Shown here one piece after another: positions 58,462 through 61,998 of a DNA stretch of 64,000 bases. Below the pieces are notes generated by a model. The model had not been told where the DNA came from, searched no databases, and saw nothing but the letters and a program-made list of their open reading frames with translations. Position numbers and translations under genes: made by a program. Origin of the DNA: Halarcobacter mediterraneus (lineage in GTDB: Bacteria > Campylobacterota > Campylobacteria > Campylobacterales > Arcobacteraceae). The DNA is taken from positions 620,001 through 684,000 of the forward strand of contig NZ_NXIE01000001.1 in NCBI RefSeq assembly GCF_004116625.1. The letters run 5' to 3'. Every line of letters begins with the position of its first letter. Position 1 is the stretch's first letter.

Positions 58462-58905
58462 TTATTTAATAGAAATATATATTTCTATCTCATCTTCTTT
58501 TGCATATTTTTCAAAATCAAAATTATATGCTCGTTCATATTCACAAGATTCAGACTCAAAATAAGCCCATATCTCTTTCCAAGTTTCTATTACTACTTCA
58601 GGAAATTCACCCTTTTTTGAAAATACTAAATATTTATCTTTTTCTATAGTAATGGCATTTTTAGGTTTTGTAACTTCTACTCCAATTGTATAATCATAAT
58701 CAGAGTTTACATCATTTTCATATTTATTATAAACTCCATACATAGCCATATTTTTTGCTTTATTGAAAGTTTTACTTTCTATATTTTCATCCACATACTG
58801 TTGCCATAAAGCTGGAATTTTACCTTCTTCACTAAATTCTATTTCATTATTTGTTCTTGTACTAATACCTGCTACATAAAATTTTTCTAAATATTTTACT
58901 TTCAT
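58462..58905 (-). CDS. GyrI-like small-molecule-binding protein
   Basis: 147 residues of the AraC effector-binding/GyrI fold: KYLEKFYVAGISTRTNNEIE, IPALWQQYVDE, DYDYTIGVEV near 69, YLVFSKKGEFPEVVIETWKE near 88, and a closing YNFDFEKY with EIEIYISIK. Such stand-alone domains bind drugs or lipophilic cations. Its position directly behind an ABC-F gene (33-base gap) is consistent with antibiotic protection. Confidence 0.88.
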   Translation of the reverse strand: MKVKYLEKFYVAGISTRTNNEIEFSEEGKIPALWQQYVDENIESKTFNKAKNMAMYGVYNKYENDVNSDYDYTIGVEVTKPKNAITIEKDKYLVFSKKGEFPEVVIETWKEIWAYFESESCEYERAYNFDFEKYAKEDEIEIYISIK

Positions 58906-58938: not shown

Positions 58939-60426
58939 TCATATTAAAACCTCTAAATTAAAATTAGATGGACTTTTTTCTGAAATTTTCCAAGTTTTTG
59001 TTTTAATATTCTTTATAAAATGCAAATCATGACTTACAAATAAAACTGTACCTTTATACTCTTTTAAAGCCTCTTGCAAAGATAAAATTGAATCAATATC
59101 CATATGATTAGTAGGTTCATCTAATATCATAAAAGCTATATTTTCTAATAAGGCTTTAGCAAACAATAACTTTTTTAACTCCCCAGAACTTGGAAAGTCA
59201 TTATTTAATAGAGTTTTAGCATTTGAAGACAATCTTGTTATAAAAGTAAAAAGTTCTCCTTTTTTTTCATTAGATAAATTATTTATCTCTTCAAATAACT
59301 CTTGTGCTTTTTTTAAGTCAATTTCTTGGGGAAGAAACAATATTTCATCTAAGTTTAGTCTTGAAACTATTTGTTTAATAAAAGTAGATTTCCCCACGCC
59401 ATTGTCTCCCAAAAGAACTATTTTATCTCCTTTATTTATACAAAGTTCAGGATAAAACAAAGTTTTTTTATCTGTTAGTTTTATACTACCCTCTTCAATA
59501 AAAAAAGGGAAAATATCATTTTTACTTGATATTTGTTCTATTGCTATTCCTTTTTTATACTCTTTATCTAAATTAATTTTTTGTGAATTTAATTGTTGTA
59601 GTTTTGTATTAAAAGTATCTACTTTTTTTGAATCATTTTTATCTTTTCCTGTTAGCTTTGCTAAGTTTATTTTTTCTTTTAAACTTTTATCTTTTTTATC
59701 AATACTTTTTTTTGAAAGTCTTGATTTACTTTTAGAAACTTTTTCTTTTTGACTTTGAATATTTTTTTGCAAAGATTTAATCTTTTGATTTTGTTTTTCA
59801 AACTCTTTTTTCAAACTGTCTTGTTCTTTTTTAAACTCGTTTATTGCTTGTGAATAAAAAGTATTGTACTTATAAAAAATCTTATTTTTTATGATAATAG
59901 TATGAGTACATAAAGAGTCTAACACTTCTTTGTCATGACTAACTATTATTCCTATTTTATTAAAAGTAGTAAGTGCTTTTATTACTAGTTCTTTTGTAGA
60001 AATATCTAAATGATTTGTAGGCTCATCTAAAAGCAAGATATCAACATCACTATAAAGAGCAATGGCTATTTGTATTTTTTTCTTCTCTCCAAAACTTAAA
60101 GACTCCCAGCGATAAAGCCACTCATCTTCTATACCCAATAACTCTTGTAATTTATATTTTTTGCTTCTATAGTCCTCTCTAAACTCTTCAAAATTATCAG
60201 GTAAAGAATACATTTTTTGCTTACAATAATATACTAAATTATTACCAACTATTGTTCCTGTATTTGCTTTTAATTTTTTCGAAATAAGCTTTAACAAAGT
60301 AGTCTTACCTGAGCCATTTTGTCCTACAATAGAAGTAAAACCATTTGTAAACTCTAAATTTAAATTTATTAAAATATCATTATGTAAATATTTATAAGAA
60401 AGATTGTTTATTTGTAAATGTTGCAT
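58939..60426 (-). CDS. ABC-F family ATPase (ribosome protection type)
   Basis: 495 residues, two ABC domains and no membrane part. Domain 1: Walker A IVGQNGSGKTTLLKL near 34, signature LSFGEKKKIQIAIAL near 108, Walker B LLLDEPTNHLD. A lysine-rich coiled-coil linker (about 180-270) follows. Domain 2: Walker A LLGDNGVGKSTFIKQ near 330, signature SSGELKKLLFAKAL near 410, Walker B MILDEPTNHMD. ABC-F proteins act on the ribosome E site; short members of this layout give antibiotic resistance. Its ribosome-binding site lies in an alternative RNA structure (see 60433-60491). Confidence 0.92.
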   Translation of the reverse strand: MQHLQINNLSYKYLHNDILINLNLEFTNGFTSIVGQNGSGKTTLLKLISKKLKANTGTIVGNNLVYYCKQKMYSLPDNFEEFREDYRSKKYKLQELLGIEDEWLYRWESLSFGEKKKIQIAIALYSDVDILLLDEPTNHLDISTKELVIKALTTFNKIGIIVSHDKEVLDSLCTHTIIIKNKIFYKYNTFYSQAINEFKKEQDSLKKEFEKQNQKIKSLQKNIQSQKEKVSKSKSRLSKKSIDKKDKSLKEKINLAKLTGKDKNDSKKVDTFNTKLQQLNSQKINLDKEYKKGIAIEQISSKNDIFPFFIEEGSIKLTDKKTLFYPELCINKGDKIVLLGDNGVGKSTFIKQIVSRLNLDEILFLPQEIDLKKAQELFEEINNLSNEKKGELFTFITRLSSNAKTLLNNDFPSSGELKKLLFAKALLENIAFMILDEPTNHMDIDSILSLQEALKEYKGTVLFVSHDLHFIKNIKTKTWKISEKSPSNFNLEVLI

Positions 60427-60432
60427 TGAAAT

Positions 60433-60491
60433 TCCTTGATTATGCTATAAAAGATCAAGGATAATTGTATTTTTTTAAATTTTATCCTTGA
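60433..60491 (-). promoter_or_regulatory. Three-segment alternative RNA structure before the ABC-F gene
   Basis: On the minus-strand transcript: segment C, TCAAGGATAA (60491-60482), begins two bases after the GNAT stop; segment B, TTATCCTTGAT (60464-60454); segment A, ATCAAGGA (60440-60433), which contains the ABC-F Shine-Dalgarno AAGGA six bases before its ATG. B can pair with C (10 bp) or with A (8 bp) but not both. B:A hides the ribosome site; C:B frees it. C:B is followed by TCTTTTATAG, a poor terminator. Confidence 0.65.
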
Positions 60492-60493
60492 AT

Positions 60494-61057
60494 TTATAAT
60501 AAAGTATTCATTTCTTTTTCCTTTGTAATTTTATATAAAACATGCTCTGCTAAACTGTGATTTTTTGGAAGCAAAGGATGAAAAAAATTATTGTTAGTAT
60601 TTTTCATACCAATTCGTTCCATAACAAGATATGACTTTTTATTTAGTACTGAAGTAAAAGCATAAACCTCTTCTAACTTTAATTCTTCAAAAGCAAAATT
60701 CAAAACTGCTTTGGCTGCTTGAGTAGCATAACCTTTCCCCCAATATTTTTTATCTAACCTCCATCCTATCTCGACACAAGGATTAAAAGGTAAATCATAT
60801 CCAGGTTTATTTAATCCTACAAAGCCTATAAACTCTTTTGTAGATTTCTCTTCAACAGCCCAAAATCCCCAACCTTGAATAGAGATAAGAAAACGACACT
60901 TATCTGCTAATTCATCACTTTGATTCTGAGTTAATATATTTGGAAAATATTTCATTACATCTTTGTCTGAATTTATTTTTGCAAAAGCTTTATAATCACT
61001 ATCTTTCCACTGTCTTAATCTTAATTTTTCTGTTTGTATTTCATATATCTTTTTCAT
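60494..61057 (-). CDS. GNAT N-acetyltransferase, RimJ/RimL type
   Basis: 187 residues. LRLRQWKDSDYKAFAKINSD at the start, FWAVEEKSTKEFIGFVGLN near 72, EIGWRLDKKYWGKGYATQAA near 98 (the acetyl-CoA Q/RxxGxG/A loop is WGKGYATQAAK) and YLVMERIGMKN near 143 are typical. It acetylates a ribosomal protein N-terminus or an antibiotic amine. It is first in the ABC-F operon, with the RNA switch beginning two bases after its stop. Confidence 0.9.
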   Translation of the reverse strand: MKKIYEIQTEKLRLRQWKDSDYKAFAKINSDKDVMKYFPNILTQNQSDELADKCRFLISIQGWGFWAVEEKSTKEFIGFVGLNKPGYDLPFNPCVEIGWRLDKKYWGKGYATQAAKAVLNFAFEELKLEEVYAFTSVLNKKSYLVMERIGMKNTNNNFFHPLLPKNHSLAEHVLYKITKEKEMNTLL

Positions 61058-61095: not shown

Positions 61096-61998
61096 TTAAA
61101 ACTGATACCCTATACTAATAAAACTAAAAATATCTTTTTTATTATAAAAATCTATATTTGCATTTTCTTTTTTATATCCTAATTTAAAACTTAAATAAGT
61201 ATTTTTATAATTCAAGGGTTGTTTCCATTTTAATTCACTTATAATACCATAACTATCACTTTCAATTGTTTCATTAAAAATAGGATTAATCTCTTCATAC
61301 TCTTTTGTTGAATATTCTGTTAATAACATTAATTCTAAATATCTATTTATTTCAGTCATTACTCCAAAATCTAATCCATAGCTATTATAAGAACTAGCTT
61401 TCCCCTCAGCAAAATATTTTTCATAATTGATATTATATATTAAAGCTAATTTTTTATTTATTATATGACTTGTTTCTAAAGAGATTCCATGTCTATTTCC
61501 TTCACGTTTTAATACATCTAATACACTTTCTTTATCATAGGATTTATTACTATACTTATATTTAAGCTTTGTCATAATATCTTCATTTAAATGCATACTA
61601 TATCCAATATATGCTCCCACTTCATTTGTATCTGTTTCTTTTCTTTCTGAAGCTATCAAAAATGGATTTTCCCATTCTTCCTTAGCCAATAAATCGATAT
61701 TTATTCCTATATCAAAAGTTCCCTTATTAACTTCTATTTCACTACCTAAACTAAGTCCACCCATACCAGATTCTGTATAGATATTAATTTTGTCATTAAC
61801 ATCATAACCATAATAAAAGCCTATATAAGGATTTGCCATTGTATCAGATTCAGCATTTTCATATTTTAAAATAGTTCCTTTTGATTCAGTAGAAAAATTA
61901 TCTTTAGATTTAAAAATTCCACCACCTAATTCAATATAGTTTTGTTCCTTTGCACATAATGTACTTACCAATAAAGATAAAAATATTACTCTTTTCAT
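61096..61998 (-). CDS. Outer-membrane beta-barrel protein of unknown function
   Basis: 300 residues with signal peptide RVIFLSLLVSTLCA. The mature part alternates hydrophobic and polar residues (IELGGGIFKSKDNFS, YIGFYYGYDVNDKINIYTES, SLKLGYKKENANIDFYN) and ends in the barrel-terminal IGYQF. No family name is evident. It is divergent from a two-component system. It could be its target or an unlinked porin-like protein. Confidence 0.7.
   Translation of the reverse strand: MKRVIFLSLLVSTLCAKEQNYIELGGGIFKSKDNFSTESKGTILKYENAESDTMANPYIGFYYGYDVNDKINIYTESGMGGLSLGSEIEVNKGTFDIGINIDLLAKEEWENPFLIASERKETDTNEVGAYIGYSMHLNEDIMTKLKYKYSNKSYDKESVLDVLKREGNRHGISLETSHIINKKLALIYNINYEKYFAEGKASSYNSYGLDFGVMTEINRYLELMLLTEYSTKEYEEINPIFNETIESDSYGIISELKWKQPLNYKNTYLSFKLGYKKENANIDFYNKKDIFSFISIGYQF

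Follow-up and report, generated by a model that had tools for sequence, protein, structure and literature searches.

A probable ribosome-mediated attenuator with a five-codon leader before an ABC-F gene of Halarcobacter mediterraneus and its relatives

The window analysed here, a stretch of 64,000 nucleotides from Halarcobacter mediterraneus (contig NZ_NXIE01000001.1, positions 620,001 to 684,000), carries on its minus strand the gene of an ABC-F ATPase of 495 amino acids (58939-60426, ATG at 60426-60424), which is putatively regulated and, by similarity, of the antibiotic-resistance type. The protein scores 299 bits with the family profile NF000355 (ribosomal protection-like ABC-F), followed by the Vga and Msr families; this lies below the curated cut-off of 380, and resistance is therefore putative, if likely. 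Its best match in the PDB is chain V of 6ha8 (ExpZ, 9e-41), which we take to be VmlR of B. subtilis, and the closest solved relatives include ExpZ/VmlR, Lmo0919 (VgaL), Vga, Msr, and Lsa. A tblastn search of plasmids with the ABC-F protein gave no match. Among the ABC-F matches, L087, L133, L172, L143, and L159 show in-frame stop codons within the alignment or its frame (one TGA in G015, one TAA in G025, four stops in G628, two in G092, and one in G564), and some of these may reflect decay of the copy or effects of the gene end. Downstream, the ABC-F gene is adjoined by a gene for a Cass2/GyrI-like drug-binding protein (58462-58905). A protein resembling it by eye lies upstream of the leader in G045 (L097), and a glyoxalase/bleomycin-resistance-like gene lies upstream in G046; a clustering of small drug-response genes around ABC-F is thus possible.

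Upstream of the ABC-F gene, also on the minus strand, lies a PA3944-like GNAT acetyltransferase gene (60494-61057), itself preceded closely on the same strand by a gene for a DUF2860 outer-membrane-type protein (61096-61998). The interval between GNAT and ABC-F contains three segments, all read on the minus strand. Segment C (TCAAGGATAA, 60491-60482) starts two bases past the GNAT stop codon (TAA, 60496-60494). Segment B (TTATCCTTGAT, also written TTATCCTTGA(T), 60464-60454) would be the switching arm, as it can form either 10 perfect pairs with C or 8 pairs with segment A (ATCAAGGA, 60440-60433), which contains the AAGGA Shine-Dalgarno (SD) sequence of ABC-F. These segments, their pairing and their placement relative to the GNAT stop and the SD had been proposed in a sequence-only reading of the locus, and all of this holds at the coordinates given. 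Folding, which that reading had suggested as a check, gives the region 60420-60505 an energy of -13.7 kcal/mol that is far outside chance (z -3.31; none of 200 shuffles did as well), with C:B as the minimum-energy fold. Among the 67 ATG-started ORFs of at least 100 amino acids in the window, the ABC-F ORF alone has such a perfect triple (8-bp A:B and 10-bp B:C) upstream. The element matched none of the 4227 families of Rfam.

What the sequence-only reading had overlooked is a conserved leader ORF of five codons with its own SD. The leader (MNTLL*, 60511-60494, minus strand) coincides with the last five GNAT codons and the stop, and its SD (AAAGGA, 60524-60519, minus strand) lies within the GNAT reading frame in the window, with AAAGG kept at the same place in relatives. 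The arrangement conserved in the family is AAAGGA-N7-ATG AAT ACT TTA TTA TAA, that is, an SD followed by the five-codon ORF. Across 24 genomes the leaders have five codons (range 4-6), each with an SD, and belong to the types MN[TSI][LS][LFIY]*, MNTL*, MNIKR*, MNIILN*, and MWIL[NSH]*; those of the family read MNTLL, MNTLF, MNTLY, MNILF, MNILL, MNSLL, MNTSI, MNTSL, and MNTL. The distance from the first base of the start codon to the leader end, which the C region follows at once, is 18 nt in 22 of the 24 genomes and 15 and 21 nt in the others, and the distance from the leader end to B varies from 23 to 36 nt. The conserved ruler is the spacing between the start codon and C.

In 24 genomes, spread over three families of a single order, the module of leader, C, B, and A precedes this same ABC-F gene. 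When 104 genomes of the family to which this genome belongs were searched at the DNA level, about 150 bases around the junction proved 72-84% identical in 16 other genomes, compared with 55-74% identity between the ABC-F proteins. This conserved block starts in the last GNAT codons, although the relatives carry other genes there. The conservation check named in the sequence-only reading therefore comes out in favour of a switch, all three segments being kept. A covariance model (R1) built from the family recovered 17 elements at E<1e-8 in the 104 family genomes, all of them directly before the ABC-F start, and the next best match had an E value of 0.1. Two further families of the order show the same layout with a different sequence, one represented by G203 and G318 (leader MNIKR*), the other by G280 (MNIILN*) together with G630, G533, G570, and G558 (MWIL[NSH]*). 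A second DNA match within the genome itself (L002, 45 bases, 83%) lacks the module and was set aside as chance. In 23 leaderless relatives (g18, g12, g19, G254, G484, and most of g35), a scan of 150 nt for short uORFs preceded by an SD found just one, MKDRNM* in L167, which lies far upstream; the other 22 had none. On the ABC-F tree the leader label requires at least four changes, and the leader is present in L129, which of all rows of the order is placed deepest and sits on a long branch; both an old leader with several losses and repeated gains are possible. Distant ABC-F relatives from Aegiribacteria and Fermentibacteraceae (L009 and L011, just before 3001) have another short ORF, MIISF* or MIILS*, in which a UUCUUUCU-like part of the coding sequence complements the SD (AGAAAGGA); this would be a possible cat-type attenuator.

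The relation between leader and GNAT bears directly on what the locus would sense. As the leader ORF is in frame with GNAT and the two end at the same stop codon, the acetyltransferase reads ...LYKIT-KEKE-MNTLL*, its tail crossing the leader SD and ORF, and its alignment to PA3944, a relative of solved structure, ends just short of this tail, at residue 178 of 187. In G011 another GNAT (Acetyltransf_10; L105:981-1514) likewise runs in frame into an MNTL* leader before ABC-F; it has no detectable similarity to the GNAT of the window (Acetyltransf_3), so that, judged from these sequences, the fusion arose at least twice. The shared stop codon and the second, unrelated fusion would suit a reading in which GNAT itself has evolved into the leader and the sensed event is its translation and termination. 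Such a reading is nevertheless improbable, since no upstream gene enters the leader in 22 of the 24 genomes, the leader retains its own SD and ATG, and most relatives have a TATAAT-like -10 box some 31-43 nt ahead of the leader ATG, which fits a separate transcript at this point. Moreover, the GNAT was found in just one of the 104 family genomes, with no other copy in them at E<=1e-20, and 'GNAT as leader' is therefore a local add-on. The proposal of the sequence-only reading that the upstream gene acts as the leader thus stands for this genome and falls as a general rule, the conserved sensor being the separate five-codon ORF.

Evidence for the pairing itself differs between the two helices. 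All 10 C:B pairs are retained in the 17 family sequences, where the variants consist of one U-A to A-U double change (G011) and one A-U to G-U change. Because MAFFT was unable to align the C stem of other families, cognate and non-cognate duplexes were swapped across families using six lineage versions of the stem, which is rebuilt with a different sequence in each lineage (GATAGCGGG with CTTGCTATC, CGATTATCAGGAT with ATCCTTGATAATCG, CTCGAGGA with TCCTTGAG, and GTGTCCAAGG with CCTTGACAC). When B was exchanged among the six versions, the cognate set ranked first of 720 permutations, with a total energy of -81.0 versus a mean of -54.5 kcal/mol. The C:B pairing is thus compensatory. For B:A no covariation was found: 148 of 720 permutations did as well as the natural one, and double changes numbered 0. 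This test is uninformative, as A is a fixed SD and is unable to covary. The A core CAAGGA is invariant in all sequences, and the B core UCCUUG is an anti-SD (CCUUG in G558). In G203 and G318, B retains this anti-SD core although C has lost AAGGA, which is the best sequence evidence suggesting that B also pairs with A.

These comparisons also weigh on the notion that C:B switches nothing and simply ends transcription of the upstream gene as an intrinsic terminator, or serves as a processing hairpin. Although C:B is the minimum-energy fold and is followed after B by TCTTTTAT in the window, this explanation is very improbable: relatives have no U-tract after C:B, the window and two relatives scanned (three loci) contain 0 terminator-like sites, the anti-SD core of B persists where C has changed, and the covariance-model search of the 104 family genomes places the module solely before ABC-F. 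An attenuator here would thus apparently act on translation only. Least probable of all is that B:A does no more than hide the SD, as a simple hairpin or an RNA thermometer, with C repeating the SD by coincidence, for although B:A closes the SD in the folds and the stem is AU-rich, C varies jointly with B, is no longer SD-like in G203 and G318, and stands at a conserved spacing from a conserved leader ORF.

The effect of ribosome position on the competing helices was predicted by hiding the RNA up to the ribosome front edge (P-site codon plus 15 nt, a footprint borrowed from other bacteria) and computing the openness of the ABC-F SD. For the window, the SD openness is 0.73 with the start codon in the P site and 0.68 at codon 2, and falls to 0.04 at codon 4 and 0.03 at the stop. 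Averaged over the 24 sequences, openness is 0.50 for a ribosome on the start codon versus 0.03 for one at the stop, and the change exceeds fivefold in 23 of them; the one sequence that does not switch in silico is that of G558. Moving the front edge between +13 and +17 leaves this unchanged. When the spacer was shuffled, none of 300 window versions switched as strongly, and in 12 of 13 representatives 0-8 of 300 did so, with 8 of 300 in G280 and G558 as the one that failed. In these model folds, the position of the ribosome is what decides which helix forms.

Taken together, these results argue that the ABC-F gene is controlled by a ribosome-mediated translational attenuator with a five-codon leader, a reading to which we assign a probability of about 0.78. 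A ribosome would translate the short MNTLL leader and, with no drug present, reach UAA at once, where its front edge would cover C, so that B would pair with A and the ABC-F SD would be hidden. Under a drug, the ribosome would be held on the start codon or codon 2 with C just past its front edge; C would then pair with B, A would be released, and ABC-F would be made. Some lineages have a fourth segment (leader codons 3-5, segment D) that would pair with C, and the ribosome-free RNA would therefore also be closed, as in erm and trp attenuators. In G007, G015, G203, G280, and others, the leader codons are predicted to pair with C at -7 to -10 kcal/mol, and the ribosome-free RNA is closed (SD openness 0.00-0.04). 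The window version of this pairing is weak (-2.5) and its ribosome-free RNA fairly open (SD 0.61), so the OFF state here would require steady translation of the leader or of GNAT, and ribosomes passing through GNAT would add to the OFF signal, the leader being joined in frame to its tail. The logic of the sequence-only reading, in which a ribosome at the stop masks C and closes the SD and one held upstream opens it, is therefore supported by the conservation, the rebuilding of C:B and the masking folds; its choice of leader applies locally only. It is a rather unlikely extension that, in the window and in G011, the own translation of a full-length, possibly drug-modifying GNAT gates the ribosome-protection gene, such that the first resistance step would repress the second while working and release it on ribosome stalling.

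The ON geometry would be produced by drugs that arrest ribosomes at initiation, and we infer that candidate inducers include pleuromutilins, lincosamides, streptogramin A, and tetracyclines. A trp-type amino-acid attenuator was considered and rejected, as the leaders (MNTLL, MNIKR, MNIILN, MWILN) are not rich in codons for one amino acid. Furthermore, the leader residues vary, which makes a sequence-specific arrest or an amino-acid sensor unlikely.

The predicted switch shares its competing segments with the ermC and trp-type attenuators and, where segment D is present, follows the same four-segment logic. In ermC the output is the SD, and in trp a ribosome at the stop codon means OFF. The present element is ermC-like in its output and trp-like in the meaning of the stop, but its five-codon leader has no known arrest motif or repeated amino-acid codons, and the controlled gene is an ABC-F. 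ermC is itself a translational attenuator (PMC10219788). Among ABC-F genes, very short uORFs control VmlR (MIN) and CplR (MR[I/M]), further ones are predicted for LsaA (MAGN) and VmlR2 (MK[L/Q]), and uORFs of as few as three codons mediate the induction of VmlR and CplR by lincomycin and retapamulin (PMC9226507, PMC10201436). The vmlR and cplR systems of Bacillus and Clostridioides are thus similar in having a very short uORF with its own SD before a resistance ABC-F gene, and in them the leader refolds when drugs stall ribosomes at initiation, which frees the ABC-F SD, the same logic as predicted here (PMC9226507, PMC10201436). However, both add an intrinsic terminator to SD hiding, which was not found here in the three loci scanned, and they are unrelated in sequence and belong to another phylum, the leaders here being MN... 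or MW... The msrD leader (MYLIFM) is likewise short, ends in UAA and precedes a resistance ABC-F gene (PMC10314930), but it stalls ribosomes at the stop codon and acts via a terminator, whereas in the present model a ribosome reaching the stop would shut ABC-F off. Additionally, in the toiL uORF of topAI in E. coli, antibiotics that stall ribosomes free an SD, and tetracycline stalls the ribosome at the toiL start codon; toiL differs in controlling a toxin-antitoxin transcript and in being coupled to Rho termination (PMC12121999).

Overall, the conserved five-codon leader emerges as the sensor and GNAT as a local passenger, with the switching well supported in silico. The kind of control, ribosome-mediated attenuation of an ABC-F gene, is already known, and the variant here is apparently translation-only. 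No ABC-F attenuator in Campylobacterota was found in the literature searched; if the present reading is true, the phylum has one that uses a translation-only switch and a five-codon leader. Since the start-codon-to-C spacing is tightly kept and the leader sequence is variable, these leaders would offer a clean test of the view that leaders sense where the ribosome stops and not what is translated. The locus would also be an example of a leader ORF absorbed into a neighbouring gene, and under the proposed attenuator, resistance of these bacteria to drugs acting at initiation is predicted to be inducible, not constant.
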